Part shown: positions 16,412-53,100 of the stretch, one piece after another | Layout of the letters: every line of letters starts with the position of its first letter | Position numbering within the stretch: position 1 is the stretch's first letter | NCBI GenBank assembly: GCA_015059685.1 | Contig: SUZW01000002.1 | Coordinates: 62,001-126,000, forward strand | DNA: 64,000 bases | From: Rikenellaceae bacterium | GTDB lineage: Bacteria; Bacteroidota; Bacteroidia; Bacteroidales; Rikenellaceae | Direction: 5' to 3' | Notes under the pieces: model-generated | Database searches by the model: none | The model's input: the letters and a program-made list of their open reading frames with translations, nothing else | Told to the model about the DNA's origin: nothing | Translations under genes and position numbers: made by a program

Positions 16412-17404
16412 TTGATGGCATTGAATATGAAAACCTACACAAATACCCAGCTGCTCGAGATGTTCGAGCGACACTTGTCTGCTATGCAGACACCCAGCGA
16501 GCCACACCGCCTCTATGCCCCTATAAAGTATGGTTTGGAGGAGGGAGGTAAGCGTATTCGCCCAACCCTGTTAATGCTTGCATACAACCTCTATGCCGAG
16601 GATGTCGAGCGTGCGCTGACACCCGCCATGGCGGTGGAGATTTTCCACAACTTCACGCTCCTGCACGACGATATTATGGACAACGCACTTGTGCGTCGCT
16701 CACGCCCTTCGGTCTATGCCAAGTGGGGCGAGAATGTAGCTATCTTGTCGGGCGATGCGATGTTGATTTTGGCCTATAGCCACCTGCAACGCACCTCCAC
16801 ACCGCAACTGCCTCGTATCTTCGAGTGCTTCAATAAGATGGCTGCCGAGGTGTGCGAGGGTCAGCAGATGGATATGGACTTCGAGACGCAGGAGAAGGTG
16901 GCTGTGGTCGATTATATGCGGATGATAGAGCTCAAAACGGCCGCTTTGTTGGCCGGCTCGGCCCTTATAGGTGCAATTCTGGGTGGCGGCTCCGAGCGTG
17001 ACTGCCGACGACTCTACGACTTTGCACTGGAGGTCGGTTTGGCCTTCCAGTTGCAGGATGACCTGCTCGACAGCTTTGGCGATGAGCGTCTCGGCAAGAA
17101 GATTGGTGGCGATATCTTGGAGGGCAAGAAGACAATCTTGATGCTCGAGGCCTTCTCTCGTGCCAACGAGGAGCAGCGTGAGGTGCTGCGCACAACCCAT
17201 TTGCGCAAAGATTTGAGCGATGCCGATAAGATTTCGACAATCAAGGCCCTATACGAGGAACTGGGTGTTCCCGAGAGGGTGGAGCAGCAGATTGCCTCCC
17301 GCTTCTCGAAGGCACTCTCTATCCTCGACACTCTCGAAGTGGAGGCCGAGCGCACCGCAGAGTTGCGCCACTATGCCGAAAACCTTATCGGCAGAAAACA
17401 TTAG
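16412..17404 (+). CDS. Polyprenyl synthetase
   Basis: GGKRIRP; LLHDDIMD; LQDDLLD. Confidence 0.9.
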   Translation: MMALNMKTYTNTQLLEMFERHLSAMQTPSEPHRLYAPIKYGLEEGGKRIRPTLLMLAYNLYAEDVERALTPAMAVEIFHNFTLLHDDIMDNALVRRSRPSVYAKWGENVAILSGDAMLILAYSHLQRTSTPQLPRIFECFNKMAAEVCEGQQMDMDFETQEKVAVVDYMRMIELKTAALLAGSALIGAILGGGSERDCRRLYDFALEVGLAFQLQDDLLDSFGDERLGKKIGGDILEGKKTILMLEAFSRANEEQREVLRTTHLRKDLSDADKISTIKALYEELGVPERVEQQIASRFSKALSILDTLEVEAERTAELRHYAENLIGRKH

Positions 17405-17550
17405 ACGAAAGACGAGAGACGAGAGACGAGAGTTGGCGCAATTTAATAACGGCCAGTAAGGGCTATTAAGGGCTATTAAGGGCTATTAAGGGCCAGTAAG
17501 GGTATAGCGCCTTCTTTACTAGCCCTTACTAGCCGTTACAAACCCTTAAT
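17405..17550. repeat. Composite: (GACGAGA)n heptads plus 10-bp (AAGGGCTATT) repeats and inverted arm
   Basis: GACGAAAGACGAGAGACGAGAGACGAGAGTTGGCGCAAT...AACGGCCAGTAAGGGCTATTAAGGGCTATTAAGGG. Confidence 0.85.
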
Positions 17551-17596
17551 TTTGTTGCGCCTTGACAAGTTTAGGAGTTCGGAAAACAAACAAGAT

Positions 17597-18835
17597 ATGA
17601 AACGCACAGATATTGAAATAATGGCACCCGTGGGGTGTTACGAGTCGCTCCACGCAGCGATAAATGCCGGTGCCAACTCGGTATATTTCGGCATTGGCCG
17701 ACTCAATATGCGCTCCGCCTCGGCAGCAAACTTCTCCGAGGCCGACCTGGAGCAGATTGTCGAGATTGCCCACGCTGCGGGTGTTAAAACCTACCTCACG
17801 GTCAATACCATCATCTACGATGATGAGATGCAGGCGATGCACGAGGTTGTCGATAAGGCAAAGGCCGTGGGTGTCGATGCCATCATCGCCTCGGACTTGG
17901 CGGTTATAACCTACGCCTACCACGCAGGTGTCGAGGTTCATATCTCCACGCAGTGCAACATCTCCAACTCGGAGGCGGTAAAGTTCTTCTCGCAGTGGGC
18001 CGATGTGGTGGTCTTGGCTCGTGAGCTGTCGCTCGAGCAGATTGCCGAGGTGCATCGAGCCATCGTGGAGCAGGATATTCGTGGCCCTAAAGGCGAGTTG
18101 GTCGAGATTGAGATGTTTGCCCACGGAGCGTTGTGTATGTCCATCTCGGGTAAGTGCTACTTGAGCGAGCACGAAACCGCTTGCTCGGCTAATCGTGGTG
18201 CCTGCCGTCAGATTTGCCGCAGAAAATATACTATCCAGGACAAAGATACGGGCGAGATGCTCGATATAGATGGTCGCTATATCCTCTCGCCAAAGGATTT
18301 GTGTACGGTCGATTTTCTCGACCAATTTATCGCTGCGGGAGTGCGAGTGCTGAAAATCGAGGGTCGAGCTCGTGGTGGCGAGTATGTCAAACGAGTGGTT
18401 GAGGCCTACGACAAGGCGCTGCGGCTTATCGAGGCGGGCGAATATACCCGTGAGAGTGCCGAGGGGCTGAAAGAGGGGTTGTTGCGTGTCTTCAACCGTG
18501 GCTTCTGGGGTGGCTACTACGCCCACAAGCGCATTGTTGAGCATAGTCAGGCGTATGGCTCGTCGGCAACACACCGCAAGGAGTATGTCGGCAAGATTAC
18601 CAACTACTTCAAAAACATAGGTGTTGCCGAGATTACGGTCGAGGCATCGACTCTGGCTGCGGGCGACGACATCCTGATTATGGGCGAAAAGACGGGTGTT
18701 GTGGAGCAGAAGGCCGAAGGCATAGTCCTTGCCGAGAGGGTCGTAGAGAGTGTTAAGCAGGGCGATGTATGCTCTATTAAAACAGTCGAATTGGTGCGCC
18801 GAGGCGATAAACTATACAAAGAGGTAAAGAGATAA
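17597..18835 (+). CDS. Peptidase U32 family protein
   Basis: IEIMAPVGCYESLHAAINAGANSVYFG; ALCMSISGKCYLS. Confidence 0.9.
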   Translation: MKRTDIEIMAPVGCYESLHAAINAGANSVYFGIGRLNMRSASAANFSEADLEQIVEIAHAAGVKTYLTVNTIIYDDEMQAMHEVVDKAKAVGVDAIIASDLAVITYAYHAGVEVHISTQCNISNSEAVKFFSQWADVVVLARELSLEQIAEVHRAIVEQDIRGPKGELVEIEMFAHGALCMSISGKCYLSEHETACSANRGACRQICRRKYTIQDKDTGEMLDIDGRYILSPKDLCTVDFLDQFIAAGVRVLKIEGRARGGEYVKRVVEAYDKALRLIEAGEYTRESAEGLKEGLLRVFNRGFWGGYYAHKRIVEHSQAYGSSATHRKEYVGKITNYFKNIGVAEITVEASTLAAGDDILIMGEKTGVVEQKAEGIVLAERVVESVKQGDVCSIKTVELVRRGDKLYKEVKR

Positions 18836-18888
18836 CCTTTGGTTATCCAATTGGCAATTGATAATTGATAATTAAAATATTATATTAA

Positions 18889-18926
18889 AAAAAGCTAATG
18901 GCCAATGGCTAATGGCTAAAAGCAAA
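18889..18926. repeat. TTAGCCA repeat block, opposite orientation
   Basis: AAAAAAGCTAATGGCCAATGGCTAATGGCTAAAAGC. Confidence 0.8.
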
Positions 18927-18937
18927 AATATACAATT

Positions 18938-20332
18938 ATGTTCAGTGCAGATACTTACAAACAAAGACGCACGGAGTTGCGCAAGCGAATTGGTAACGGA
19001 TTGATTTTGATACCGGGAAACACCTTTTCGCCAAATAACTATCCGAATAACGCCTACTACTTTCGTCAGGATTCGACATTTCTCTACTACTTCGGTCTGA
19101 ACTTGCCGACCTTGATGGCTGTGATAGATGCCGAGTCGGGCGAGGAGATGCTCTTTGGCGACGATTTTACGGTTGAGGATATCATCTGGACAGGCCCACA
19201 ACCACGCCTTGTGGAGTTGGGTGTGCAGGTCGGTGTGTCGAATTGCCAGCCTTTGAAGGCCCTCGATGGTGTTGTCGCTGCCGCAATGAAGCATGGGCGC
19301 AAAATTCACTACCTGCCGCCATATCGTGGCGAGAGCAAAATCGAGCTTTCGCGCCTTCTTGGTTTGCCGATTTCGGAGTTGTACAACCACAAATCGGTCG
19401 ATTTGATGTTTGCCGTAGCGGAGATGCGAGAGGTGAAGTCGGCCGAGGAGATTGAGGCGTTGGAGCGAGCATTCCAGCTCGGTTACGCTATGCACACCAC
19501 GGCTATGAAGATGTGCAAGGCTGGCGTTGTCGAGCGTGAGATTGCGGGAGCAATGGAGGGTGTCGCAAAGGCACAAGGTCTTGGCGTGTCGTTCCCAAGT
19601 ATCGTGTCGCAACACGGTGAAACGCTGCACAACCTAAACTGCGATGGCGTTTTGGAGAATGGTCGCTTGCTGTTGGTTGATGCGGGTGCCGAGTCGGTGG
19701 AGAACTACTGCTCCGACCACACTCGTACATACCCCGTGTCGGGTAAGTTTACGCAGAAGCAAAAGGAGATATACGAGATAGTACTGCGTGCGCACGACGA
19801 GGCTCCGAAAAATATGAAAACAGGTGCGATGTATATGGAGGAGGTGCACAAGAAGGCGTTGCTCTCGTTGGCAGAGGGCTTGCACGATGTGGGTCTTATT
19901 CACGGTTTGGCCGAGGATGCAGTCGAGGCGGGGGCGATGTATCTCTTTATGCCTCACGGCCTCTCGCACGGCCTCGGTATGGATGTCCACGACTGCGAGG
20001 CTATGGGCGAGCGCAGCTACGACTTCTTGGAGTTCAAGGAGAGGGCTATTGCATCGGGTACTTGCGTCTATCGTGCCGCTTGGAAACTGCACGAGGGTAC
20101 GGTTATGAGCAACGAGCCGGGCATCTACTTTATCCCTGCCCTGATTGACAAGTCGAAGGCCGAGGGGTTGTACAAGGGTATTGTAAATTACGACCTTTTG
20201 AACGAGTACCGTGACTTTGGCGGTATCCGCATCGAAGACGATATCGTTGTAACGGCCGAGGGTGGCCGAGTTATCGGCGACAAGCATATCCCTTCGTCGG
20301 TGGAGGAGCTGGAAGCTGTTGTTGGAAGATAG
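18938..20332 (+). CDS. Aminopeptidase P family (Xaa-Pro) metallopeptidase
   Basis: DAGAESVENYCSDHTRTYPVSGKF; PHGLSHGLGMDVHD. Confidence 0.9.
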   Translation: MFSADTYKQRRTELRKRIGNGLILIPGNTFSPNNYPNNAYYFRQDSTFLYYFGLNLPTLMAVIDAESGEEMLFGDDFTVEDIIWTGPQPRLVELGVQVGVSNCQPLKALDGVVAAAMKHGRKIHYLPPYRGESKIELSRLLGLPISELYNHKSVDLMFAVAEMREVKSAEEIEALERAFQLGYAMHTTAMKMCKAGVVEREIAGAMEGVAKAQGLGVSFPSIVSQHGETLHNLNCDGVLENGRLLLVDAGAESVENYCSDHTRTYPVSGKFTQKQKEIYEIVLRAHDEAPKNMKTGAMYMEEVHKKALLSLAEGLHDVGLIHGLAEDAVEAGAMYLFMPHGLSHGLGMDVHDCEAMGERSYDFLEFKERAIASGTCVYRAAWKLHEGTVMSNEPGIYFIPALIDKSKAEGLYKGIVNYDLLNEYRDFGGIRIEDDIVVTAEGGRVIGDKHIPSSVEELEAVVGR

Positions 20333-20356
20333 GGTCGTTAGAGGCGTTAGGGTCGT
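20331..20356. repeat. GGGGCGTTA-type 9-mer block between pepP-like and mqnB
   Basis: AGGGTCGTTAGAGGCGTTAGGGTCGTTA. Confidence 0.7.
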
Positions 20357-20357
20357 T

Positions 20358-20867
20358 ATGATTTTTCTCTTTCCAACCGAATTTGAGGCCTCTCGTTTGA
20401 GGGCGTTGCGTCCCGACCTCGATATACGCATCTGCGGCATCGGGGCGGTCGAGACAGCGACCGAGGTGGCCCGTATTCTCCGCACCGAGCGTGAGCCTTT
20501 GCTGCTCTGCGGTATTGCGGGGGCATACGACCACTCTCTCCAAAAAGGGGATGTCGTAGCTGTTACGGAGGAGCGATTTGCCTACCTCTCAACGGGTTAT
20601 GACCGTTCATATCTGGCTACTATGGTGGTTGAAGATTTGCCGATGGTGCGCAGCAACACCGTGTCGCACTGCTCAATGGCGGCCGATGGTGCCGAAATAG
20701 AAAATATGGAGGGGGCAGCCCTCTTTGCCCTTGCCCAAGCCGAGGGAGTGTGCTGTGGCGAAATTCGTGCCATATCGAACTATGTCGGTGAGGAGCGCAG
20801 CGAGTGGAATATTGACCTCGCCCTCGAAAACCTTACCAATACAATATTAGACTTAAATATCGAGTAA
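20358..20867 (+). CDS. mqnB: Futalosine hydrolase
   Basis: ENMEGAALFALA; AISNYVGEERSEWNID; mqnD nearby. Confidence 0.8.
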   Translation: MIFLFPTEFEASRLRALRPDLDIRICGIGAVETATEVARILRTEREPLLLCGIAGAYDHSLQKGDVVAVTEERFAYLSTGYDRSYLATMVVEDLPMVRSNTVSHCSMAADGAEIENMEGAALFALAQAEGVCCGEIRAISNYVGEERSEWNIDLALENLTNTILDLNIE

Positions 20868-20869
20868 CT

Positions 20870-23533
20870 ATGACAAAACGAAACCTATGGATCTTGGCAG
20901 CGATACTCTTGGTGTCGTGCTCTAATGTTCGACCTTCTCAATTAACTTGCGAGTATCAAGTATCCCCACTTATAGATATTCAGATACCTCGCTTAAGTTG
21001 GAAAAACAGATCTTGCCGAGAGGGCGCTGCGCAGACGGCTTATCAAATTCGAGTAACAAAACACTCGGCAGGCGAAGATGTTGTCGTGTGGGATAGCGGA
21101 AAGGTGGAGTCCGAAAACTCTTTGTATATCCGCTATGCAGGCGAGCCACTCTGCTCCTCTTGTGACTATTCGTGGCAGGTGCGAGTGTGGGACGAGCAGG
21201 GTAGAGCTTCGCGTTGGAGCAGCAGAGCGAAGTGGCATACCGGAAAACTATCTGCCGAGGAGTGGGTAGCGAAGTGGATAGGTGTGCCTTGGCAGGGCGA
21301 TGACTCCTACGATATAGAGTGGGCAAGGAGTGCGAAGAAGCCTTCACGCCCCAAATTGAAGAAGGAGCGTATCAACGATGTTGTGCCTGCTCCACTTCTT
21401 CGCAAAGAGTTTGAGGTAACGAAGGCGGTACGCTCGGCTCGTTTCTATGGCACTGGTCTTGGCTATTTTGAGTTGTATCTCAATGGCGAGCGTGTGGGAG
21501 AGGACTACCTCTCGCCCAATCAGACAAATTATGACCGTCGCCCACTGCTCGGAACACGAGGTATAGCGGTTGAAGACCCATTTGAAGAGTATCTTGTGGC
21601 TTATGTGAGCCACGACATTACACCTCATATTAAGCGTGGGCGAAATTGTGTAGGAGCAATTCTCGGTAATGGCTTCTACGATTTGGTGGAGTATTGGCCA
21701 CCAATGGGATATGGCACTCCTCGAATGTTTGGCCAGATAGAGATTGAATATGTTGATGGCACACGCGAGGTGGTTGCAACCGACACCTCGTGGCATTGTG
21801 CAAAGAGTGCTATTGTGGCAGATCAGATGTTCCTCGGAGAGCACTACGATGCTCGACTCGAGCACGAGGGCTGGGCGACGGCAGGCTACGATGATGGCGA
21901 GTGGAGTGCGGTTGTCGAGAAGCGGGCACCTTGTGGCAAACTCGTTGCGCAACAAGGTCCTGCCGACAAGATTGTAAGACGATACAGGCCTACCTCGATA
22001 ACAAAACAGGAGGATGGCTCGTTGTTGGTAACCTTCCCCAAGGAGATTTCGGGTTGGGTAGCACTTAAAAATCTTCGACTCGACAAGGGACAGAGGGTCG
22101 ATATAAAGTATATCTGCGAGTCGCTGAATGGTGCAAACAGCTACACGGCAAAGGGCGTTGGTCGAGAGTCGTATCACGCACGATTTATATGGTTCGTATT
22201 CTCGCAGGTCGAAATTCGTGGTGTCGAAGATTTGACCTCGAGTCAGATTGAGGCTCACGCCGTAAACTCCGATTTGGAGATGGTTGCCGAGTTCGAGAGT
22301 TCGAATAAACTGCTCGATGCTTTGGTTCGTGCTTGGCAACTTACGCAACTCGACAATATGCACGGAGGTGTGGCGAGTGACTGTCCGCAACGAGAGCGTT
22401 CTCCATATACGGGTGACGCTCAGTTGGCGTGTCAGATGGTGATGCACAACTTCGATGCTGCCGCATTCTATAATAAGTGGTTGCGAGATATGCGAGGTGC
22501 GCAGACCGAGGATGGTTATGTGCCGAACTCCGCACCTTGGCAACCGGGTTGTGGCGGAGGCCCTGCGTGGGGTGCAGCAATTGCGATTATCCCGTGGGAG
22601 TTCTACCAATATTATGGTGATAAGCAGGTGTTGGAGGAGCACTATGTGCCGACAAAGCGTTACATCGAGTGGATGGATCGTTGGGTTGACGAAGATGGCG
22701 TGATGGAGTCGAAAGATGAGCAGAAGTATAAGCGACTCTGCGACTGGATTATGCCATACGGGGAGTTCCCTGATGCTGCAGCAATGCATACATTCGCCTA
22801 CTTCTGCTGTGTGGATATTGCCGAGAAGATGGCGACGGAGTTGGGCTATGATGATGAGGCGAAGCACTATGCCTCGTTGCGTGAGCGCACAATTCGAGCC
22901 TTCCATAACCGCTTCTACAATGCCGAGGAGCGCAGCTATGGAAGACATGGTGCAAATGTTGTGGCTCTACGAATGGGTATGCCTGATGGCTACCAATCGG
23001 TGGCACTCGAGGCCCTGAAGCGAGAACTTGCCGAGGTCGATAACCATATTATCACAGGTATTGTCGCTACTCGCCACCTCTTCGATGTGCTGTGCGAAAA
23101 TGGCGAGGTGGATTTGGCATATACTATAATAAATAGACGCACCATGCCGAGTTTCGGCTATTGGATAGAGCAGGGTTCGACCACATTGTGGGAGAGTTGG
23201 GATGGTAATCCAAGAAACTCACGCAACCATCCGATGTGGGGTGGTGCAATGACCTGGTTCTATCGCTTCTTGGCGGGAGTGAAGCCCGTGCAGGCGGGAT
23301 TTCGTACCTTTGAGGTGGCTCCGATGGTGCCACAAGGCTTCGATTATATACACTATAAACTTGATACGGTTTATGGTGAGTTGGAGGTTGAATGGAGTAT
23401 TAAAAATGGAGTGTTCCACCTCGATTGCACCGTTCCCGTGGGTACAGAGGCTGTTGTTAGACTGCCTTATGGCGATGGAGAGAGCTATATGGTTGGTGCA
23501 GGTTGCCATAAGTTCAAAGCAGAGATCCGATGA
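20870..23533 (+). CDS. Alpha-L-rhamnosidase (GH78-like), lipoprotein
   Basis: Lipobox LLVSCSN; SDCPQRERSPYTGDAQ; 887 aa. Confidence 0.9.
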   Translation: MTKRNLWILAAILLVSCSNVRPSQLTCEYQVSPLIDIQIPRLSWKNRSCREGAAQTAYQIRVTKHSAGEDVVVWDSGKVESENSLYIRYAGEPLCSSCDYSWQVRVWDEQGRASRWSSRAKWHTGKLSAEEWVAKWIGVPWQGDDSYDIEWARSAKKPSRPKLKKERINDVVPAPLLRKEFEVTKAVRSARFYGTGLGYFELYLNGERVGEDYLSPNQTNYDRRPLLGTRGIAVEDPFEEYLVAYVSHDITPHIKRGRNCVGAILGNGFYDLVEYWPPMGYGTPRMFGQIEIEYVDGTREVVATDTSWHCAKSAIVADQMFLGEHYDARLEHEGWATAGYDDGEWSAVVEKRAPCGKLVAQQGPADKIVRRYRPTSITKQEDGSLLVTFPKEISGWVALKNLRLDKGQRVDIKYICESLNGANSYTAKGVGRESYHARFIWFVFSQVEIRGVEDLTSSQIEAHAVNSDLEMVAEFESSNKLLDALVRAWQLTQLDNMHGGVASDCPQRERSPYTGDAQLACQMVMHNFDAAAFYNKWLRDMRGAQTEDGYVPNSAPWQPGCGGGPAWGAAIAIIPWEFYQYYGDKQVLEEHYVPTKRYIEWMDRWVDEDGVMESKDEQKYKRLCDWIMPYGEFPDAAAMHTFAYFCCVDIAEKMATELGYDDEAKHYASLRERTIRAFHNRFYNAEERSYGRHGANVVALRMGMPDGYQSVALEALKRELAEVDNHIITGIVATRHLFDVLCENGEVDLAYTIINRRTMPSFGYWIEQGSTTLWESWDGNPRNSRNHPMWGGAMTWFYRFLAGVKPVQAGFRTFEVAPMVPQGFDYIHYKLDTVYGELEVEWSIKNGVFHLDCTVPVGTEAVVRLPYGDGESYMVGAGCHKFKAEIR

Positions 23534-24297
23534 AAAAGCTATCGCTCCATATCTCGCCTTGCCCGAATGATACTTTCGCCTTCGATGCAATCATAAATCG
23601 TCGCCTTGCGCACGACTTTGACCTCTCGGTCGAGTATCACGATATCGAAGAGCTGAATGAGGGGGTGCTGCGTGGCGAGCCCGATATCTCGAAAATCAGC
23701 TATGCGGTCTATCCGCTTGTGGCCGATAGGTATCGTCTGCTCGATAGTGGCTCGGCTTTGGGGCGTGGAAATGGACAACTTCTCGTTAGGCGCAAAGGTG
23801 AAACGGGGAAAATTCGCACGGTCGCCTCACCGGGAAAGAACACTACGGCCAACGCCCTCTTGATGCGCTACTTCCCCGAGGTCGAGGAGGTGCAGCAGAT
23901 GCTCTTTTCCGAAATTGCCGCAGCGGTGGAGCGTGGCGAGGCGGATGCGGGGGTCTTAATTCACGAAGGGCGTTTTGTCTATGAGCGTCGCAACCTCTCT
24001 CTTGTTGCCGACCTCGGAAAATTGTGGGAAAACGAAACAAATTTGCCTCTTCCGCTTGGTGCAATTATCGTTAAACGAGAATTGGGAGAGGAGATAATAT
24101 CGAAATTCGATAAACTGCTTGCCGAGAGTGTGCGTTATGCCTTTGCTCACCCTCTCGCCTCACGGGAGTTTGTCAAGCAACACGCCCAAGAGCTCGAAGA
24201 CGATGTTATCGAGAAGCATATATCGCTCTTTGTAAACGACTACACCATCTCGCTCGGAGAGGAGGGGCGAGCTGCCGTAGAGCGACTTTTGCAATAG
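23530..24297 (+). CDS. mqnD: 1,4-dihydroxy-6-naphthoate synthase
   Basis: LHISPCPNDTFAFDA N-terminus. Confidence 0.9.
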   Translation: MKKLSLHISPCPNDTFAFDAIINRRLAHDFDLSVEYHDIEELNEGVLRGEPDISKISYAVYPLVADRYRLLDSGSALGRGNGQLLVRRKGETGKIRTVASPGKNTTANALLMRYFPEVEEVQQMLFSEIAAAVERGEADAGVLIHEGRFVYERRNLSLVADLGKLWENETNLPLPLGAIIVKRELGEEIISKFDKLLAESVRYAFAHPLASREFVKQHAQELEDDVIEKHISLFVNDYTISLGEEGRAAVERLLQ

Positions 24298-24318
24298 GAG
24301 ATTTTAGTAAAAAGTAAG

Positions 24319-24413
24319 AAGCTGTCTAACAAGGCTCTTTTGGCATCTGCCTTGTCTGAAAAATGCTCATTTACGCTTAAGTAAACTCCGCTTTTCCAGC
24401 CTTCGAGCAGCTT
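24319..24413 (+). repeat. Long-hairpin repeat copy H1
   Basis: CTG-AAAAA-TGCTCA-TTTAC-GCTTAA-GTAAA-CTCCGC-TTTTCCAG with outer AAGCTG/CAGCTT. Confidence 0.65.
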
Positions 24414-24440
24414 CAAAATAGCTCTTGTTATACAACTTCT

Positions 24441-24488
24441 AACAACAAGGGAGTGTCTAAAAACTTTTTAGACACTCCCTTGTTTGTT
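24441..24488. terminator. Bidirectional intrinsic terminator
   Basis: CAAGGGAGTGTCTAAAAA-C-TTTTTAGACACTCCCTTG, 18-bp perfect arms, convergent genes. Confidence 0.9.
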
Positions 24489-24502
24489 GTACGAACGGCT
24501 CT

Positions 24503-25426
24503 CTATCGCATAGCAATCTCGGTCGAGCCGATAAGGTTGCCACCCGTGTAGAGTTCGATTTTGTAGGTGCCAGGGATAAAGCCGCTACCCTTGTAGAAGA
24601 TACTTACATCGACATCCTCGTTCTGGTAGTCTATCTCTCGTGATGCCGAGTAGCCCTTCCTCGAGCCGTGGAAGTCGAATGTAGGCATAGCATCGGTCGA
24701 GAGCAGGTAGCCATCAGGCGATGTGATGCAGAGGTAGATGGTGCGGTTGCCCGTCTGCGCAAGCTCGTTGGCCGCAACGGTGAAGTCGATACGCAGAGTG
24801 GCGGCATTCTTCACTCGGGTAATCATCTTGTCGTTGGCGTTGAGTGCTATCATCGCAATATCTCTTGCACGAAGCACCGAGCCCTGTGCCACCTTGTTCT
24901 GCAGCTCCGAAGCACGCTCCTCGGCAACATCGGCACGAAGGTTGGCGGTCGAAATCTCCTTGCGAAGCGATACATTCTCACCGATAACCTTCTTGTTGAT
25001 GGTGTTGAGCGAGTCGATCTGACGAAGGTAGTTCTTCATCACGGCACGAAGAGTACCGACCTCCTTCTGGTACTGCTTGAGTTTGTTGTAGTTGAAGCGA
25101 CGCTCACGCTTGAGCTGTCGGACCATCTCGTTGGCCTTCTCCAGCTGCGCTGCAATGGTGTCGTTCTGGTACTTGAGGTTGTCGTACTCGTTAATCAACG
25201 ATGTGAGATTGTTCTGAATGGTATCTCTATCGGCCTGCAACAGTGCGTAGTCCTCCTGCTGCTGGCGGTTGAGGTTGAAGTAGAGTATCGACAAGCCGGC
25301 AAGAATTATTGCCAACAAGATAACCACAATGCGATAGCCACGCAGTGACTTCTTGACCGCATCGTTCTCCTCGTTCTCGTAGTCATAACCCTCCTCGGGG
25401 TCATATTCGTATTTGTTCTCCTCCAT
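24503..25426 (-). CDS. Single-TM coiled-coil protein of unknown function
   Basis: TM segment after acidic N-terminus, then heptad-rich region. Confidence 0.6.
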   Translation of the reverse strand: MEENKYEYDPEEGYDYENEENDAVKKSLRGYRIVVILLAIILAGLSILYFNLNRQQQEDYALLQADRDTIQNNLTSLINEYDNLKYQNDTIAAQLEKANEMVRQLKRERRFNYNKLKQYQKEVGTLRAVMKNYLRQIDSLNTINKKVIGENVSLRKEISTANLRADVAEERASELQNKVAQGSVLRARDIAMIALNANDKMITRVKNAATLRIDFTVAANELAQTGNRTIYLCITSPDGYLLSTDAMPTFDFHGSRKGYSASREIDYQNEDVDVSIFYKGSGFIPGTYKIELYTGGNLIGSTEIAMR

Positions 25427-25494
25427 AGTTGTATGGTTTTAATTTCAAAAATCGGTGCAAAGATAATACTTTTTTGGCTTTTAGATTGTTTTTT

Positions 25495-25701
25495 TGTTTT
25501 CCGAACTCCGAGCCCTTGTCAAGGCGCAACAAAATTAAGGGTTTGTAACGGCTAGTAAGGGCTAGTAAAGGGGCGCCGCAGGCCTAAATAAAAATTTCTT
25601 TAATTATCACCGCTGCGATTAAGCCGAGTGCAGAGGCTGCTTGCAGACTTTGCCGAGGCGGAGCAGTGAAGACCGAAGGTCAATTGTCAATTGTCAATTT
25701 G
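25495..25701. repeat. Intergenic repeat mosaic, inverted copy of the 17.5 kb region plus GTCAATT heptamers
   Basis: CCGAACTCCGAGCCCTTGTCAAGGCGCAACAAAATTAAGGGTTTGTAACGGCTAGTAAGGGCTAGTAAAG is near reverse complement of 17515-17583. Confidence 0.85.
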
Positions 25702-26538
25702 AAAACTCCGCTTTCTGTTTTCCGTTATTTTTGATGTTAGTGGATATTTCAGTCCCTCGTAGCGACGGAGGTAGGCACGCACCTCTCCGACACGCACGGG
25801 CGAGGCGAGCATAACGGGTATCTTGTTGTCATCCTCGGTAATCCAGATAAAAAACTCCGTGCCATCGGTAAACGAAAACTCCTCGGAGGAGCCTATCGTG
25901 CAGGCAAACTTCATCGTCGCAAAACGCCCCGTGCGAGGCACTTTCACCGTGTCACGCTCGATAAAGCGGTAGCGCAGGTGGCGAATAGTATCCTCCAGCA
26001 CCATATCGAGGCGGTGGGGCTCACCCTCACGGAATGAGTTGAGGTCCACCGAGCGCAGGTTGAAGTAGAGCGATATGGCATCCATACTCTCGGGTGTGAG
26101 CTTCATCGTCTTGGTGCGAGGCTTATCCTGTCGCTTCTGCGCCCAGGTGTGCACCTTCATTGCACCCCAATCGTAGCGGTAGATGCTGCGGAAGGTGTAT
26201 CTATCCTCCTTCAAGTCGCTCTCGAAGCGTTGTGTCTTTTTCGACTCCTTGTCCACCCATATAGTATAGGTGTCGTTCATATCAAAGAACCAACGGAAAA
26301 ATGGCAGCGTGCGACCATTGCCCGTGATGCGATATACATCCCTGCCACCGAGCGTGTCGAGAGAGGTTGATACGGTGACCTCGCCAACCTCGGTGTTGGG
26401 TATCAGCTTGGCACGATAGGCGGCACGATAGTAGAGCTTCTCGCCATCCTGAAAAACCTGTGCCGAGCTGGTCGCTACCCCTGCAACGAGGAGTATCGCA
26501 AAAATCGCACCTTTTATATATCTGTTCACAATTTTCAT
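25687..26538 (-). CDS. DUF3108-like secreted protein
   Basis: Signal peptide; FQDGEKLYYRAAYR...GEVTVS pattern. Confidence 0.7.
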   Translation of the reverse strand: MKIVNRYIKGAIFAILLVAGVATSSAQVFQDGEKLYYRAAYRAKLIPNTEVGEVTVSTSLDTLGGRDVYRITGNGRTLPFFRWFFDMNDTYTIWVDKESKKTQRFESDLKEDRYTFRSIYRYDWGAMKVHTWAQKRQDKPRTKTMKLTPESMDAISLYFNLRSVDLNSFREGEPHRLDMVLEDTIRHLRYRFIERDTVKVPRTGRFATMKFACTIGSSEEFSFTDGTEFFIWITEDDNKIPVMLASPVRVGEVRAYLRRYEGLKYPLTSKITENRKRSFQIDN

Positions 26539-26570
26539 CTGTTCTTAAAACGCTTGCGTTGAGGAATTTA

Positions 26571-28688
26571 TTATGAAATCTCCGAAAAATCGGTTTTGTG
26601 TTCGGGTGCGTAGCGGTCACGCAACTCTCGTAGCACAAGGTGGTCGGGGTGCGAAAGCGATGCATCTACGCCCAATATCTGAATGGCCAACTCCTGCGCC
26701 AACTGCAAAATCTGGTTGTCGTAGGTCGGGTTGGCAATCTTCAAGTCGAAGGCCTCGCCACTCTGCATCGTGCCGTTTATATCGCCTGCACCTCGCAGTT
26801 TCAAATCGAGTTCCGCCAACTCGAAGCCATCGGTCGTCTGGCACATCGCCTCCAAGCGTTTGCTCGACTCCTTCGACAGCTTCTCATCCGACATCAACAC
26901 GCAGTAGGACTGCTCTGAGCCACGACCTACACGACCTCGCAGCTGGTGCAACTGCGCCAAGCCAAAACGCTCGGCCGACTCGATAACAATAACGGTCGCA
27001 TTCGGCACATCGACACCCACCTCAATAACCGAGGTTGCGACCAAAATATCCGCCTGCCCATTTTTGAACTCCTCCATCGCCTGCTGTTTGAGTTCGGGCT
27101 TCATCTTGCCGTGGCAGACCGCAACCTTATATTTTGGCAGCGGAAAATCGCGCACAATAGCGTCGAAGCCCTCCTGCAACGATAGGTAGTCCATCTTCTC
27201 GGACTCGGCAATCAACGGATAGACCACATAAATCTGTCGCCCTCGCTCAATCTGCTTGCGCATAAAGTTCTGCAACGACAATCGTGCCGACTCGAAGTAG
27301 TGGTAGGTCTTTATCGGCTGACGACCAGGAGGCAAACCCTTAATAATCGACACATCGAGGTCGCCATACAGGGTCATTGCCAAAGTGCGAGGAATAGGCG
27401 TTGCGGTCATCACAAGGATATGCGGAGGTTGCGCATTTTTGGTCCACAATCGTGCCCTCTGCTCAACGCCAAAGCGGTGTTGCTCGTCAATTATCACAAG
27501 TCCCAAATTCGAGAACTGCACCCTATCCTCAATCAGGGCGTGTGTTCCGACCAAAATATCTATCTCGCCCGCCTCCAATGCGGCTAAAATCTCTCGGCGC
27601 TCCTTCGCTTTGGTTGTTCCCGTAAGTATTGCGATGCGCACCAGCACACCCTCGCACATCTTCGTCATCGAGGCGTAGTGCTGGCGTGCCAAAATCTCGG
27701 TCGGCACCATCATGCACGACTGGAAGCCGTTATCGCCCGCCAACAACATCGACAACAACGCCACCACAGTCTTACCACTGCCGACATCACCCTGCAAAAG
27801 TCTATTCATCTGCACGCCCGACACGGTATCTTGGCGAATATCACGCACCGCCTGCTTCTGACCCTCGGTCAAGTCGAAAGGTAACTTCGTGTGGTAGAAG
27901 GTGTTGAACTTGTCGCCCACCTTCGGGAAGAAGAAACCATCTCTGCGCCCTGTACGCTCCGACCTGCGAGCCTGAATGTTCAACTGAATACCGAACAACT
28001 CGTCAAATTTCAGGCGATATTGCGCCTGTCGCAACTTCTCGGGCGACTGCGGAAAGTGGATATTGTAGAGTGCCTCTTCGAGCGACATCAAGCCATACTT
28101 GCGCACGATATATTCGGGCATATAGTCGTGGATATGGTTGCGCACAACACCCCACAACGAGCAGACGATATTGTATAAACCCTTGCCACCGAGCGTGGTC
28201 GAGAGCTTCTCGGTTGTGGAGTAGATACCCTGCAGGCCACTCTCAACCTTACGAGAGAGCGCTTTTTCGACAACCTCGATTTCGGGGTGCACCATCGAAA
28301 GCTCGCCACGGAAGAAGGAAGGGCGACCAAAGACGATATATTCACGATTAGGCTCGATAATCTTCTCAATCCACTTCACGCCACGGAACCAAATCAACTC
28401 CACACGCCCCGTATCATCGGCGCAATAGACCGAGAAACGCTGCTTGCGCCCCTCGCCCGCAAAGGCTTTGCCGAGAACTCGGACACGGAGTTGGATATAG
28501 GCGGAGGCGTTATCTTCGGTCACCTCACGCACTTTGTAGGTGCGGGAGCGGTCGATGTAGCGGAATGGGAAGTGGTAGAGCATATCACGCATAGTGACGA
28601 TGCCAAGCTCCTTCTCGAGCAACTTGGCACGCACCTCGCCCACGCCCTGCACAAACTTTATCGAATTATCGAGGATAGTACTTCCCAT
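26571..28688 (-). CDS. recG: ATP-dependent DNA helicase RecG
   Basis: LLQGDVGSGKTVVA; IIDEQHRFGVEQR; QLRGRVGRG. Confidence 0.95.
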   Translation of the reverse strand: MGSTILDNSIKFVQGVGEVRAKLLEKELGIVTMRDMLYHFPFRYIDRSRTYKVREVTEDNASAYIQLRVRVLGKAFAGEGRKQRFSVYCADDTGRVELIWFRGVKWIEKIIEPNREYIVFGRPSFFRGELSMVHPEIEVVEKALSRKVESGLQGIYSTTEKLSTTLGGKGLYNIVCSLWGVVRNHIHDYMPEYIVRKYGLMSLEEALYNIHFPQSPEKLRQAQYRLKFDELFGIQLNIQARRSERTGRRDGFFFPKVGDKFNTFYHTKLPFDLTEGQKQAVRDIRQDTVSGVQMNRLLQGDVGSGKTVVALLSMLLAGDNGFQSCMMVPTEILARQHYASMTKMCEGVLVRIAILTGTTKAKERREILAALEAGEIDILVGTHALIEDRVQFSNLGLVIIDEQHRFGVEQRARLWTKNAQPPHILVMTATPIPRTLAMTLYGDLDVSIIKGLPPGRQPIKTYHYFESARLSLQNFMRKQIERGRQIYVVYPLIAESEKMDYLSLQEGFDAIVRDFPLPKYKVAVCHGKMKPELKQQAMEEFKNGQADILVATSVIEVGVDVPNATVIVIESAERFGLAQLHQLRGRVGRGSEQSYCVLMSDEKLSKESSKRLEAMCQTTDGFELAELDLKLRGAGDINGTMQSGEAFDLKIANPTYDNQILQLAQELAIQILGVDASLSHPDHLVLRELRDRYAPEHKTDFSEIS

Positions 28689-28692
28689 ACTA

Positions 28693-28700
28693 CAAAGATA
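28693..28700 (-). promoter_or_regulatory. -7 box TATCTTTG, N4 before recG ATG
   Basis: TATCTTTG-TAGT-ATG on minus strand. Confidence 0.65.
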
Positions 28701-28701
28701 T

Positions 28702-28828
28702 AAAAAATCGTTCTGATTGGCAAATTTTGCACAAATCTTCAGTAGCCGAGTTCCTCACATACGCATAGTATGCTCCGGACTCGGCTCTTTGCTTTGCACA
28801 AAATTTCCTCAATCATTGACGATTTTTT
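28702..28828 (+). repeat. Long-hairpin repeat copy H2
   Basis: AAAAAATCGT...AGCCGAG-TTCCTCA-CATAC-GCATA-GTATG-CTCCGGA-CTCGGCT...ACGATTTTTT. Confidence 0.85.
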
Positions 28829-28830
28829 GG

Positions 28831-28957
28831 GTGGAGGAACTCTGGAGGGTGTCGGGGCGCAGGTGAATTAGGGTCGTTAGAGGCGTTAGGGGCGTTAGAG
28901 GTGCGCTTGAGGGTTTAGGTTGTCGGAACTCTGAAGGTGGTCGGGGCGCAGGGAGAA
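28831..28957. repeat. Intergenic mosaic: ACTCTGGAGG / GGGGCGCAGG / GGGGCGTTA modules
   Basis: Near-identical phrases recur at 39.7, 52.8 and 54.2 kb. Confidence 0.85.
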
Positions 28958-29165
28958 ATGGGGACGCCAACAAGTTGGCTATCTGGGGGCGCTCCCGATG
29001 GTCGCTTGTTGGGGACGCTGACTGTCAGTCAGCTATTTGGGGTGCGCTTAAAGTAATTGTCAATTGTCAATTTATTTTTTTGCGCCTCCCCATAAAGCAA
29101 TCTCCGATTGCGCCCCCATTAAGGGCGGAACGCCCGCCCCCATAAAGCAGTCGCAGACTGCGCCC
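28958..29165. repeat. Array of short palindromes separated by ~11-bp TATGGGGGC-type units
   Basis: GCCAACAAGTTGGC, GCTGACTGTCAGTCAGC, GCAATCTCCGATTGC, GGGCGGAACGCCC, GCAGTCGCAGACTGC. Confidence 0.8.
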
Positions 29166-29169
29166 CCAA

Positions 29170-29324
29170 AACACAGCGCAAAGTAAAGAAGGCGCTATAC
29201 CCTTACTGGCCCTTAATAGCCCTTACTGGCCCTTACTGGCCGTTATCAGATTGCGCCAACTCTCAACTCTCCTCTTTTTTTGAAATTTCTCTCGTCTCTC
29301 GTCTTTTGTCTTTCGTCTTTTTAT
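29170..29324. repeat. Inverted composite copy of the 17.4-17.5 kb repeat
   Basis: AAGAAGGCGCTATACCCTTACTGGCCCTTAATAG...GGCCGTTATCAGATTGCGCCAACTCTC...CTCGTCTCTCGTC. Confidence 0.85.
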
Positions 29325-29332
29325 TATCTTTG
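29325..29332 (+). promoter_or_regulatory. -7 box TATCTTTG, N4 before ispG ATG
   Basis: TATCTTTG-TGGT-ATG. Confidence 0.65.
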
Positions 29333-29336
29333 TGGT

Positions 29337-30927: not shown

Positions 30928-30944
30928 GGAGATTATTTTTAACT

Positions 30945-30990
30945 AAAAAAGCTAATGGCCAATGGCTAATGGCTAATGGCGAAAAGCAAA
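30945..30990. repeat. TTAGCCA repeat block reaching a WbqC candidate start codon
   Basis: AAAAAAGCTAATGGCCAATGGCTAATGGCTAATGGCGAAAAGC. Confidence 0.85.
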
Positions 30991-39608: not shown

Positions 39609-39612
39609 TTTA

Positions 39613-39620
39613 CAAAGATA
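39613..39620 (-). promoter_or_regulatory. -7 box TATCTTTG, N4 before lnt ATG
   Basis: TATCTTTG-TAAA-ATG on minus strand. Confidence 0.65.
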
Positions 39621-39626
39621 CAAAAT

Positions 39627-39660
39627 AATTGACAATTGACAATTGACAATTGACAATTTT
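39627..39660. repeat. (GACAATT)n heptamer block
   Basis: AATTGACAATTGACAATTGACAATTGACAATTTT. Confidence 0.9.
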
Positions 39661-39664
39661 TTGG

Positions 39665-39790
39665 TGGTGGGGACTCTGGAGGGGGTTGGGGCGCAGGTTT
39701 ATTAGGGTCGTTAGGGGCGTTAGGGGCGTTAGGGGGGGGGCGCTTGGGGCTTTAGGTTGTCGGAACTCTGAAGGTAGTCGGGGCGCAGGT
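39665..39790. repeat. Intergenic mosaic incl. GGGGCGTTA 9-mers and G9 tract
   Basis: GGGTCGTTAGGGGCGTTAGGGGCGTTAGGGGGGGGG then GCGCTTGGGGCTTTAGGTTGTCGGAACTCTGAAGG. Confidence 0.85.
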
Positions 39791-39793
39791 GTA

Positions 39794-39955
39794 ATGGCAT
39801 TGAATGGCAGGCGTTCGCTAACGCTCACTGAATGGCAATCGCTCGTTACACTCGCTGAATGGCAGGCGTTTACGCTTTTTTTGTTGCAGCTTTCTGCGCT
39901 TTGCCATTAAGCAGTCGATAGACTGCGCTGCCATTAAGGGCGAAGCCCGTTTGCC
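39794..39955. repeat. Palindrome array with TGAATGGCAR / TTAATGGCA units
   Basis: Second copy of the first part at 54400-54505. Confidence 0.8.
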
Positions 39956-40133
39956 ATTCTATGCCATCTTTGTTGCGCTTTGGCAAGGGTCAGAGTCCCC
40001 ACCAACAAAAAATTTCTCGTCTTTAATCCCACTTCGTGGGCTTTTCCTCCTTCTTGCAAGGGATAGTCTGCAAGCAGCCTCTCCTCTTGCTTCGTGCGTC
40101 GGTTCGTCTTTCGTCTTTTTATTATCTTTTTAT

Positions 40134-40141
40134 TATCTTTG
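40134..40141 (+). promoter_or_regulatory. -7 box TATCTTTG
   Basis: Upstream of ATG 40162; preceded by TTCGTCTTTCGTC heptads. Confidence 0.55.
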
Positions 40142-40161
40142 CAACGAAAAGATTTCTAAAT

Positions 40162-46000: not shown

Positions 46001-46125
46001 GAAAATTGTTCTGACGAGTTCTTTTTGCACAAGCCGTCGGACGCCAAAATGCTCACATAGGCTTACTATGCTGCGCTTTTGTCGCCTAACCTTGCACAAA
46101 AATAATCTCGTCATAAGCAATTTTC
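46001..46125 (+). repeat. Long-hairpin repeat copy H4
   Basis: GAAAATTG...GACGAG...CAAAA-TGCTCA-CATAG-GCTTA-CTATG-CTGCGC-TTTTG...CTCGTC...CAATTTTC. Confidence 0.85.
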
Positions 46126-46133
46126 GAGGTTGT

Positions 46134-46259
46134 GGAAATCGTTCTGATTAGTTTTTTTTGCACGAAACTGCGGATAGCGAGATGCTCACATACGCTTGAG
46201 TATGCTCCGCTCTCGCTACCTAGCTTCGCACAAAATTTCCTCACTCATAAGCAATTTTC
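46134..46259 (+). repeat. Long-hairpin repeat copy H5
   Basis: TAGCGAG-ATGCTCA-CATAC-GCTTGA-GTATG-CTCCGCT-CTCGCTA. Confidence 0.85.
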
Positions 46260-46297
46260 GGGGGAGGGGTGAAAATTACTCCGATTTTTGAGTTGCA

Positions 46298-46335
46298 GAA
46301 AATTGTTGTGATAATCTTGTCATAAGCAGTTTTCG
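46298..46335 (+). repeat. Core-less derivative of the long-hairpin repeat (H7)
   Basis: GAAAATTGTTGTGATAATCTTGTCATAAGCAGTTTTC joins family left and right ends. Confidence 0.5.
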
Positions 46336-46353
46336 AGATTAAAGGGTAAAATA

Positions 46354-46390
46354 AAAGCTAATGGCCAATGGCTAATGGCTAATAGCCAAA
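46354..46390. repeat. TTAGCCA repeat block
   Basis: AAAGCTAATGGCCAATGGCTAATGGCTAATAGCC. Confidence 0.85.
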
Positions 46391-46419
46391 ACAGAGTCTA
46401 TGGTCGCCATAGACTCTGT
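46391..46419. terminator. Perfect hairpin upstream of rpoN
   Basis: ACAGAGTCTATGG-TCG-CCATAGACTCTGT. Confidence 0.6.
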
Positions 46420-46470
46420 TCTTATAAATGAAGAATCGGTAAGGGGTTGCAGTTGAACTTTTTGACCGCT

Positions 46471-47889
46471 ATGAAATTATCAAACGCACAACTGCTCTTG
46501 CAGCAGCAGAAACTCTCGCCACAGCAGATCCAGATGATTAAGCTTCTGGAGCTGCCTACCGTTATGCTCGAACAGCGCATAAAGGAGGAGATCGAAGAGA
46601 ATATCGTCTTGGAGGAGGCTGCGCCTGCCGAGAGCGACGAGGAACCACAGCAAATCTCGGTCGAGGAGTATCTGCGTGAAGACGATACGCCATCCTACAA
46701 AACAAGGCTCAACCACTACTCCAAGGATGACCAACCGCGCAATATCCAAATCTCGGGTGGTCGCTCCCTGCAGGAGTCGCTAATCGAGCAGCTCGGCTTC
46801 AAAAGTCTCACCGAGCTTCAGATGCAGCTGGCAATATATATTATAGGTAGTGTCGATAGCGATGGCTATCTGCGCCGTGACCTTCTATCTCTATCCGACG
46901 ATATAGCCTTCTCGCTTGGTATCGAAGTGTCGGTGGAGGAGCTGGAGCAACTGCTCTCCATAATACAACACCTCGAGCCTGTGGGCATCGGGGCCCGAGA
47001 TCTGCGTGAGTCGTTGCTGCTGCAACTCGAGGCGCTGGGCATAGACACCCCCGAGCGACAGCTGGCGCATACAATCTTGGGGCAGCACTTCGAGGAGTTT
47101 GTCAAGAAGCACTACGAGAAGTTGATGGTCCGCCTCGGTGTTACGGAGGAGGAGTTCCGTGCCGCAGTGCAGGAGATACAGCACCTCTCGCCCAAGCCGG
47201 GAAACCTCTTCTCGGAGGGTGGTGATGAGGCTGCGCCATACATTATCCCCGACTTCCTGCTCGACTACCACGATGGGCAGTTCGACCTGTCGCTAAACTC
47301 CTACAACATCCCCGAGCTGCGCATAAACCGCCACTATGCCGACATCATCCGCAATATGGCCTCGTCGAAGGGTGCCCAGAGCGAGAGCGACAAGGAGGCC
47401 GTGCAGTTTATAAAGAATAAAATTGACTCGGCAAAGTGGTTTATGTCGGCCATAAAGCAGCGTCACGACACGCTGATGCGCACGATGCAGACCATCCTCG
47501 ACTACCAGCGTGACTACTTCCGTGATGGCGACCGCAGCAAACTCCGACCGATGATTTTGAAGGATATTGCCGACCGCACAGGTCTGGATGTATCGACCAT
47601 ATCCCGTGTCGTAAATAGCAAGTATGTTCAGACGCAATTCGGCATTATTTTATTAAAATCACTCTTCTCGGAGGCTATGCAGACCAAGTCGGGCGAGGAG
47701 GTGTCGAGCTACGAGGTGAAAAATATACTTCAGGAGTGTGTCGCCTCCGAAAATAAGCGCAAGCCTCTGACCGATGAGCAGCTGATGGATATCCTCAACG
47801 AGAAGGGTTACTGCATCGCTCGTCGCACGGTCGCCAAATATCGTGAAATGTTGGATATACCTGTGGCGCGACTACGCAAACAAATATAA
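46471..47889 (+). CDS. rpoN: RNA polymerase sigma-54 factor
   Basis: QKLSPQQIQMIKLLELP; RPMILKDIADRTGLDVSTISRVVNSKYVQT; ARRTVAKYREMLDIP. Confidence 0.95.
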   Translation: MKLSNAQLLLQQQKLSPQQIQMIKLLELPTVMLEQRIKEEIEENIVLEEAAPAESDEEPQQISVEEYLREDDTPSYKTRLNHYSKDDQPRNIQISGGRSLQESLIEQLGFKSLTELQMQLAIYIIGSVDSDGYLRRDLLSLSDDIAFSLGIEVSVEELEQLLSIIQHLEPVGIGARDLRESLLLQLEALGIDTPERQLAHTILGQHFEEFVKKHYEKLMVRLGVTEEEFRAAVQEIQHLSPKPGNLFSEGGDEAAPYIIPDFLLDYHDGQFDLSLNSYNIPELRINRHYADIIRNMASSKGAQSESDKEAVQFIKNKIDSAKWFMSAIKQRHDTLMRTMQTILDYQRDYFRDGDRSKLRPMILKDIADRTGLDVSTISRVVNSKYVQTQFGIILLKSLFSEAMQTKSGEEVSSYEVKNILQECVASENKRKPLTDEQLMDILNEKGYCIARRTVAKYREMLDIPVARLRKQI

Positions 47890-48013
47890 AAATCGTTCTG
47901 ATGACCTCTTTTTGCACGAGTGCGTCGGACGCTGAAATGCTCACATAGGCTTACTATGCTGCGCTTTCATCGCCTAGCATCGCACAAAAATAGTCTCATC
48001 ATTGACGATTTTT
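47888..48013 (+). repeat. Long-hairpin repeat copy H6
   Basis: AAAAATCGT...TGATGA...TGAAA-TGCTCA-CATAG-GCTTA-CTATG-CTGCGC-TTTCA...TCATCA..ACGATTTTT. Confidence 0.9.
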
Positions 48014-48033
48014 GGGCAGAAGGCGCAAAAAAA

Positions 48034-48206
48034 TTAGGGTCGTTAGGGGCGTTAGGGTCGTTAGAGGCGTTAGGGGAGCGCCGCAGGCCTAAACAAAAAT
48101 ACCTTTAATTGTCAATTGTCAATTGTCAATTGTCAATTCAGCATTCTGCGCTTTGATTTTTTAGTTTTCCGCTTCTCTCGTCTCTCGTCTTTCGTCTCTC
48201 GTCTAA
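48034..48206. repeat. Intergenic mosaic: GGGGCGTTA 9-mers, GTCAATT heptamers, TCTCGTC heptads
   Basis: GGGTCGTTAGGGGCGTTAGGG...GCGCCGCAGGCCTAAACAAAAAT...AATTGTCAATTGTCAATTG...CTCGTCTCTCGTC. Confidence 0.9.
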
Positions 48207-48223
48207 TCTCTCAACTAAACAGA

Positions 48224-49012
48224 CTATCGTCTGTTCTCCGCCACCCACTTTGTTAGCTCCACGAAGTCGGCAACAGAGAGTTGCTCGGCTCGCTTTGTGA
48301 AGAATGGGTGTTCCGCACCGCCAAAATCTCCAAATGCGGAGCGCAGGGAGTTGCGCAGCATCTTTCGGCGTTGGCCAAACGAGGCCTTCACGACCTTCAC
48401 AAACAGCTGTTCGTCGCAGTCGAGTGAGGTAGTGTTGTTTCTGCGGAGGCGTATTACGGCACTCTTAACCTTTGGAGGCGGGTTAAAGACCTTCTCCGAG
48501 ACGGTAAAGAGGTAGTCGATATCGTACCAAGCCTGCAGCAGCACGCTCAAGATGCCGTAGGTCTTCGACCCCTCCTTCTCGGCAATACGCTCGGCAACCT
48601 CCTTCTGTATCATACCGACACTCTCGGGGATGAGGTTGCGGTGTTCGATAATCTTGAAAAATATCTGCGAGGAGATATTATACGGGAAGTTTCCGATAAC
48701 CTTAACACCCTCGGGGAAGTACTCTGCAAGGTCCATCTTCAAAAAATCGCCCTCACGCAAGCGTGGCGTAAAGTCGGGGTAGTGTTCGTGCAGCCACTCG
48801 ATACTCTCGGTGTCGATATCCACACCGTAGGTCACGATGTCGTCACGACGCAGCAGATACTGCGTCAGCACACCCATACCGCAGCCGACCTCCAACACCG
48901 TATCGGGTTTTTCGGTCGTGCCGCCACTCAACGAGTTGCAGATCTTCTGCGCTATATTCAGGTCGGTCAAGAAGTGCTGACCGAGTGCCTTTTTGGCTCG
49001 TACTTGTTCCAT
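48224..49012 (-). CDS. rsmA: 16S rRNA (A1518/A1519) dimethyltransferase
   Basis: KKALGQHFLTD; VLEVGCGMGVLT; GNFPYNISSQI. Confidence 0.95.
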   Translation of the reverse strand: MEQVRAKKALGQHFLTDLNIAQKICNSLSGGTTEKPDTVLEVGCGMGVLTQYLLRRDDIVTYGVDIDTESIEWLHEHYPDFTPRLREGDFLKMDLAEYFPEGVKVIGNFPYNISSQIFFKIIEHRNLIPESVGMIQKEVAERIAEKEGSKTYGILSVLLQAWYDIDYLFTVSEKVFNPPPKVKSAVIRLRRNNTTSLDCDEQLFVKVVKASFGQRRKMLRNSLRSAFGDFGGAEHPFFTKRAEQLSVADFVELTKWVAENRR

Positions 49013-49074
49013 AGATGGGTGATAACAATCGAGGCTGACTTTATGCCAACCTCGATTGTTGATATTTATAAGTT

Positions 49075-53058: not shown

Positions 53059-53084
53059 AATTGTCAACTCTCAATTATTTTTAC

Positions 53085-53092: not shown

Positions 53093-53100
53093 CAAATAGT

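Follow-up and report, generated by a model that had tools for sequence, protein, structure and literature searches.

Mosaic intergenic repeats built from GCGC-bounded cassettes and 7-bp arrays in a Rikenellaceae genome

The gap at 17.4 kb in a 64000 nt stretch of the draft genome of a Rikenellaceae bacterium (GenBank assembly GCA_015059685.1, contig SUZW01000002.1, positions 62001 to 126000; hereafter the window, in whose coordinates positions are given) lies between a polyprenyl synthase gene and a U32-family gene, and is occupied by a non-coding composite of short repeats. The original prediction was that the left block of this composite reappears inverted near 29.2 kb and its right part near 25.5 kb, and both matches were recovered. 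Positions 17417–17492 match 29200–29275 inverted (76 nt, 88%), 17457–17520 match 29182–29245 inverted (64 nt, 92%), and 17514–17569 match 25515–25570 inverted (56 nt, 100%); these inverted matches are far above chance. The linker GCGCCGCAGGCCTAAAnAAAAAT, which had been described as common to two gaps, was located at ~25573 and ~48079. The same kit of parts also occupies most of the long gaps in the window, at 28.7, 39.6, 46.0, 47.9, 52.6 and 54.2 kb, which the prediction had not mentioned.

The genome (1.82 Mb in 37 contigs, a draft that is 87% complete) was searched with a 200-bp unit from the 17.4-kb gap (17401–17600), which matched itself at 7.7e-101 and sites elsewhere starting from 5.8e-50. 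Outside the unit's own locus, ~28 clearly extended, near-full-length copies were found on many contigs, and further copies are present in other species of the genus. The observation made in three gaps is therefore confirmed and is genome-wide in scope.

Repeat periods were examined in 298 kb, consisting of the window and contigs C24, C33 and C4 of the genome, with gene starts assigned by our own simple gene finder. Self-matches in intergenic DNA peak at distances of 7, 9 and 10 and their multiples, reaching 12.6, 4.1 and 7.0 per 1000 positions, compared with 0.35, 0.98 and 0.23 in coding DNA and 0.17, 0.26 and 0.32 in shuffled intergenic DNA. Period-7 arrays (n=54) occur at 1.30 per kb in intergenic and 0.020 per kb in coding DNA. 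Eleven period-9 and 22 period-10 arrays were also found, with none of either kind in coding DNA. The longest 7-bp (heptad) array seen, a 78 bp run of GTAGTGA (G000:C33:63329-63406, in L110), is located directly at a stop codon.

GCGC was found within 30 bases on both sides of 27 of the 33 period-9 and period-10 arrays (the p-value for this is inflated by the relatedness of the copies), and the order along the G-rich strand is constant, with GGCGCA followed by 14–24 bases, the array and then GCGC. The cassette is an oriented unit in three parts, a leader that has GGCGCA at its end, a short tandem array of G-rich 9- or 10-bp units and a closing GCGC. In some cassettes the GGCGCA follows a tail motif (variants of GGAACTCTGAAGGTGGTCGGGGCGCAGG), in others a 7-bp array (ACGAGAG, GAGAGTT). 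Cassettes can be joined head-to-tail, as in a series of three at 52.8–53.0 kb, and in the related genome G133 three neighbouring cassettes carry three different arrays in one conserved frame. Tail-to-tail joining at GCGC was also seen and yields a palindromic core of 117 bp, the length found in the majority of 18 intact copies. Groups of cassettes are flanked by 7-bp arrays that adjoin the gene boundary. A 7-bp array forms the left end of most cores, and the tail at the right recurs and is found inverted at some left ends, hence the ends do not appear to be constant. Other dispersed pieces share these gaps, namely element D (a 125-bp palindrome), hairpin units of ~25 bp and a block containing GCAGAGGCTGCTTGCAGACT. 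The parts identified in the window are as follows.

17401–17432, plus strand: 7-bp array TTAGACGAAAGACGAGAG..., within which lies the TAG stop codon (17402–17404) of the upstream polyprenyl synthase gene
17435–17561, plus strand: core composite GGCGCA ... TTGCGCC, 127 bp here and 117 bp in most copies, comprising a G-rich 10-bp array (17457–17502), the joint TATAGCGCC and an inverted 10-bp array (~17516–17548)
17562–17596, plus strand: tail module TTGACAAG..GGAGTTCGGAAAACAAA, reaching the start codon of the U32-family gene
25491–25597, minus strand: right-half cassette, inverted, with tail, GGCGCA, 10-bp array (25536–25568), GCGC and the linker GCGCCGCAGGCCTAAATAAAAAT
25605–25699: dispersed block (GCAGAGGCTGCTTGCAGACT) and AATTGAC heptads, the heptads giving the stop codon of a minus-strand gene
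28705–28830, plus strand: element D, a ~125-bp imperfect palindrome AAATCGTTCTGAT...TCATTGACGATTTTT
28845–28950, plus strand: 9-bp cassette GGCGCAGG-(GTTAGRGGC)n-TGCGC with tail/linker
28960–29181: module C units, blocks of ~25 bp in both orientations with hairpins (6-bp stem, 3-nt loop) as read from the sequence, surrounding an AATTGTC heptad array (29055–29072)
29182–29256, minus strand: inverted copy of the 17.4-kb left block, with 10-bp array and GCGC joints
29257–29336, minus strand: CTCTCGT heptads running into the −7 box TATCTTTG (29325–29332) of the ispG promoter
39609–40161: composite of AATTGAC heptads, a GTTGG..GGGACTCTGG end, a 9-bp cassette, hairpin units and a CAGAGTCCCCACCAAC end
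46003–46383, plus strand: two copies of element D (spanning 46003–46262) and GGCTAAT heptads
47890–48204: element D (47890–48013), 9-bp cassette, the shared linker GCGCCGCAGGCCTAAACAAAAAT, and AATTGTC and CTCTCGT heptads
52786–53054, plus strand: a head-to-tail series of three cassettes with GCGC joints, followed by CTCTCGT heptads upstream of the UDP-galactopyranose mutase gene promoter
54199–54549: one 10-bp and one 9-bp cassette, with hairpin units and a further 9-bp array that is inverted

Some of the other pieces have features of their own. Element D recurs in many gaps of those relatives that were examined, and may form a separate family resembling miniature inverted-repeat transposable elements (MITEs). 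The ~25-bp units, which have short perfect stems that differ in sequence and loops of 3 nt, lie side by side at 29080–29180, 39794–39990 and 54400–54500, and a stretch of 51 bp is identical between 39794–39844 and 54400–54450. A fragment resembling a tRNA 3'-end (..GACCGTTCGAATCCCGTGG..) recurs beside cassettes, at ~54560–54620 in the window and in the flanks of loci L015, L017, L020 and L028, a pattern that would fit the dispersal of a tRNA remnant as a block.

Among the relatives, the 17.4-kb site is empty in G057, G005 and G049, where the two genes are separated by virtually no gap (TGA-T-ATG). In G133 and G077, the right half of the unit is shared with the present genome, and AATTGAC heptads and a different linker lie to the left of the GCGC joint. 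This arrangement is a direct record of module swapping. Only 7-bp arrays are present at this site in G047, G086 and G144. The 25.4-kb gap is 260 bp long here and 32–33 bp in G005, G057 and G047. At the divergent promoter of ispG, two promoter boxes 66–97 bp apart are kept in six relatives, whereas the present genome has a mosaic of 648 bp. The relatives have four different short fillers between these boxes, GCAAAAT heptads in G005, G057 and G047, AATTGAC heptads in G077, GAGAGTT heptads in G068 and another sequence in G134. These exchanges support the original interpretation that the gaps are built from a few interchangeable modules.

G057 and G005, which are 90.6% identical over the stretches compared, also differ at one gap, which holds an element D-like sequence in one and AATTGAC heptads in the other. 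Close species thus have different blocks at the same spot, so that the gaps turn over rapidly between genes that keep their positions. However, G057 and G077 have inherited one core at the same place, showing that copies can persist too. Comparison with the empty or short-gap relatives, made by eye at the 17.4-kb and 25.4-kb sites only, revealed no target-site duplication at either.

The gene order at 46001–54198 (g34+ g35+ g36- g37- g38+) differs from that in G047, G135 and G133 (g34+ g35+ g38+ g36+ g37+), and the breakpoints lie in repeat-rich gaps. In the draft genomes G077 (contig C67) and G150 (C119), the ispG match is interrupted in each case by one in-frame stop codon.

Of 180 genomes of the genus, 10 contain the 9-bp array pattern, which never occurred in a reversed control; there are 97 sites in the present genome, 73 in G133, 38 in G135, 15 in G132 and few in the six others. 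Nine of the ten, including the present genome, fall in one cluster of 14 genomes defined by a U32 protein identity of at least 92%; G132, a 58% complete genome, had no U32 match by which to place it. The AATTGAY heptad array was found in 41 of 296 Bacteroidales genomes, representing 32 of 186 genera, against three control hits. As the 9-bp pattern is limited to a clade and AATTGAY is scattered, the 7-bp arrays are widespread and patchy, while a recent and local origin seems to apply to the cassettes. A 21-base piece of the core also has exact matches in an Alistipes and a Tidjanibacter (Rikenellaceae) genome from sheep gut, so that the gut bacterium from which the window derives is most likely an Alistipes-like member of this family.

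The position and orientation of the 7-bp arrays relative to genes follow tendencies rather than laws, because the counts are small, orthologous loci were counted more than once, the orientation classes were drawn up after the table had been inspected and the gene finder is simple. AATTGAC, GTAGTGA and ACGAGAG arrays no more than 25 nt past a stop codon are in the sense orientation (purine-rich strand) in 10 of 10 cases, and in several genes the array itself supplies the stop codon. In 9 of 11 AATTGTC and CTCTCGT arrays (antisense) upstream of genes, a TAnnTTTG promoter box separates the array from the start, and the pyrimidine strand of these arrays leads into the promoter −7 box. GGCTAAT arrays are in the sense orientation in 15 of 18 cases, at a median of 21 nt upstream of the start codon, and have such a box in only 2 of 15 (Fisher p 0.0009 against the antisense arrays). 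Stretches from the relatives have the same tendencies, with stop-side AATTGAC in sense in 8/8 cases, GTAGTGA in 3/3 and GGCTAAT, with no promoter box, in 4/4.

The gene at 30976 has its called start codon inside a GGCTAAT heptad array (30944–30980), and that of the U32 gene in G047 and G077 may likewise sit inside one. It can be speculated that GGCTAAT arrays, in which TAATG recurs with every unit, act as a start-stop relay, which fits their sense bias near start codons; some, however, are hundreds of bases from the upstream gene. A general role for heptads as three-frame stop cassettes was rejected, as GCAAAAT and CGGAAAA heptads hold no stop codon.

The explanation preferred here, with moderate confidence, is that these are non-coding mosaic repeats that spread and are reshuffled by copying or recombination at short joints. 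Dispersed copies would recombine, or templates would switch, through short identical joints and arrays, and slippage would alter array lengths. The repeats would persist because stop, leader and promoter-proximal sequence stays usable within the arrays, which would make replacement of a gap tolerable, and they may also have some regulatory effect. In favour of this explanation are the dispersed copies, the period peaks confined to intergenic DNA, the constant order of GCGC around the arrays, the tandem triple cassettes, the swap at a GCGC joint, the empty orthologous sites, the difference at one gap between G057 and G005, the orientation tendencies, the variable left ends and the lack of a target-site duplication at the two sites compared. 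In addition, no Y1_Tnp domain (PF01797) was found in the genome, whereas the same search was positive in 5 of 14 control genomes. Several points weigh against this explanation. No exchange was observed for which both parental copies are known, and new loci such as that at 25.4 kb, which gained ~230 bp over the 32–33 bp of the relatives, need a step beyond exchange between existing copies. The orientation counts are small and non-independent. Y1 was the only transposase family searched for, in a draft that is 87% complete.

Alternatively, the repeats could be a MITE-like family moved in trans by a transposase, in which mosaics would arise from insertions within insertions and the terminal inverted repeat would be the tail motif GGAACTCTGAAGGTGGTCGGGGCGCA, with its inverse at the other end. 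This is possible but rather unlikely. Inverted ends can be read at 39.66–40.06 kb and in several copies, the hairpin is strong (z −4.8 and −6.5) and a long block is present where relatives keep a gap of 32–33 bp. However, most copies have a 7-bp array at the left end, so that the ends appear inconstant, the two sites examined lack a target-site duplication, and no Y1 transposase was found, DDE families not having been searched. Spread of repetitive extragenic palindromic (REP) sequences or bacterial interspersed mosaic elements (BIMEs) by a REP-associated tyrosine transposase (RAYT) would account for a palindromic, intergenic, mosaic arrangement in high copy number, but is very improbable, and an origin of this type is largely refuted by the lack of a Y1_Tnp domain in the 87% complete genome. 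That the copies stem from the inversion or duplication of a single local segment, or from faulty assembly, has a next to negligible probability and is refuted by their dispersal. The genome is a draft and some contigs begin or end in repeats, but the copies are not confined to the window or explicable by one such event, since they are dispersed over many contigs and in other, independently assembled genomes, and G057 and G077 have one core in common by inheritance at an orthologous site.

Compared with shuffled sequences, the core has a much stronger fold, as RNA or as DNA (z −4.8, −4.1 and −6.5), and could be a regulatory RNA with a defined structure, or a terminator, that is retained for the hairpin, with dispersal secondary. 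This appears improbable, as no covariation was detected among 16 copies from several species (both sides changed in 1 of 25 pairs, covariation term +0.64), an Rfam search of the window matched only a tRNA, and the number of units in the left arm varies among copies. As the core contains two inverted copies of one array, any hairpin follows automatically, and its strength was not taken as evidence of a functional RNA; conserved RNA structure is not claimed. A G-quadruplex was also considered, as the 10-bp array often reads GGGN7GGGN7GGGN7GGG, yet its units vary to CGG, AGG and TGG and the pattern is not invariant. Finally, there is a small chance that the repeats are a combinatorial system, in which dedicated machinery would join GCGC-bounded arrays like bricks, the 7-bp period rather than the sequence would be selected, and orientation-locked arrays would serve as interchangeable stop, leader and promoter-proximal parts.

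Judged by described features, the best reading is that the repeats work like the BOX elements of pneumococci, the BIMEs of enterobacteria and the Staphylococcus aureus repeat (STAR) elements, though membership in none of these is established. In BOX elements of Streptococcus, the 5' and 3' modules are fixed and each inner unit is tens of bases long (PMC3049150). Both they and the repeats described here are intergenic, modular and non-coding, with variable numbers of inner tandem copies between outer modules and a predicted stable RNA fold (PMC3049150). However, the inner units here are 9–10 bp, the joints are GCGC, joining can also be inverted, 7-bp arrays form the borders and the outer modules vary, although no sequence comparison with BOX modules was made. 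STAR elements are likewise intergenic, GC-rich short repeats that alternate with recurring spacers of ~40 bp, have lineage-specific abundance and spread by an unknown mechanism (PMC3532100). Their spacers are locus-specific and stable within lineages (PMC3532100), whereas the present blocks are found again at other loci and have been exchanged at an orthologous site. The BIME and REP sequences are also palindromic intergenic mosaics of alternating orientation (PMC2817692), but the unit architecture differs here and no RAYT was found. BrickBuilt and other MITEs of Porphyromonas gingivalis, which belongs to the same order, similarly have short tandem repeats within a dispersed non-coding element. 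However, their 23-bp units, terminal inverted repeats matching the IS5 family of insertion sequences and, in some, target-site duplications (PMC4596501) were not seen here.

Heptamer direct repeats (TAACTGA) have been described in Beggiatoaceae, Cyanobacteria and some Bacteroidetes, with other heptamers noted by the author in the same gaps (PMC4679880). Like the arrays examined here, they have a period of 7, are intergenic and mostly near start codons, and are patchily distributed, including in Bacteroidetes (PMC4679880). The present 7-bp arrays, tandem intergenic units with GGCTAAT near start codons and other types at promoters and stop codons, are heptamer direct repeats by definition, but they include several heptamers that differ in position and orientation and are linked to GCGC cassettes. 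The cassettes match none of these systems on the features tested, and are set apart without sequence comparison to published modules. No description of such intergenic repeats in Alistipes or Bacteroidales was found in an open-access collection from which most subscription journals are absent.

For STAR and heptamer repeats alike, it is an open question by what means such small non-coding sequences spread in bacteria with no evident transposase. The occurrence of filled, empty and swapped versions of one gap in close species makes boundaries and donors directly readable, and the rules for where the 7-bp arrays lie and which way they face connect the turnover of repeats with signals for gene expression in Bacteroidales, in a form that is concrete and can be tested.

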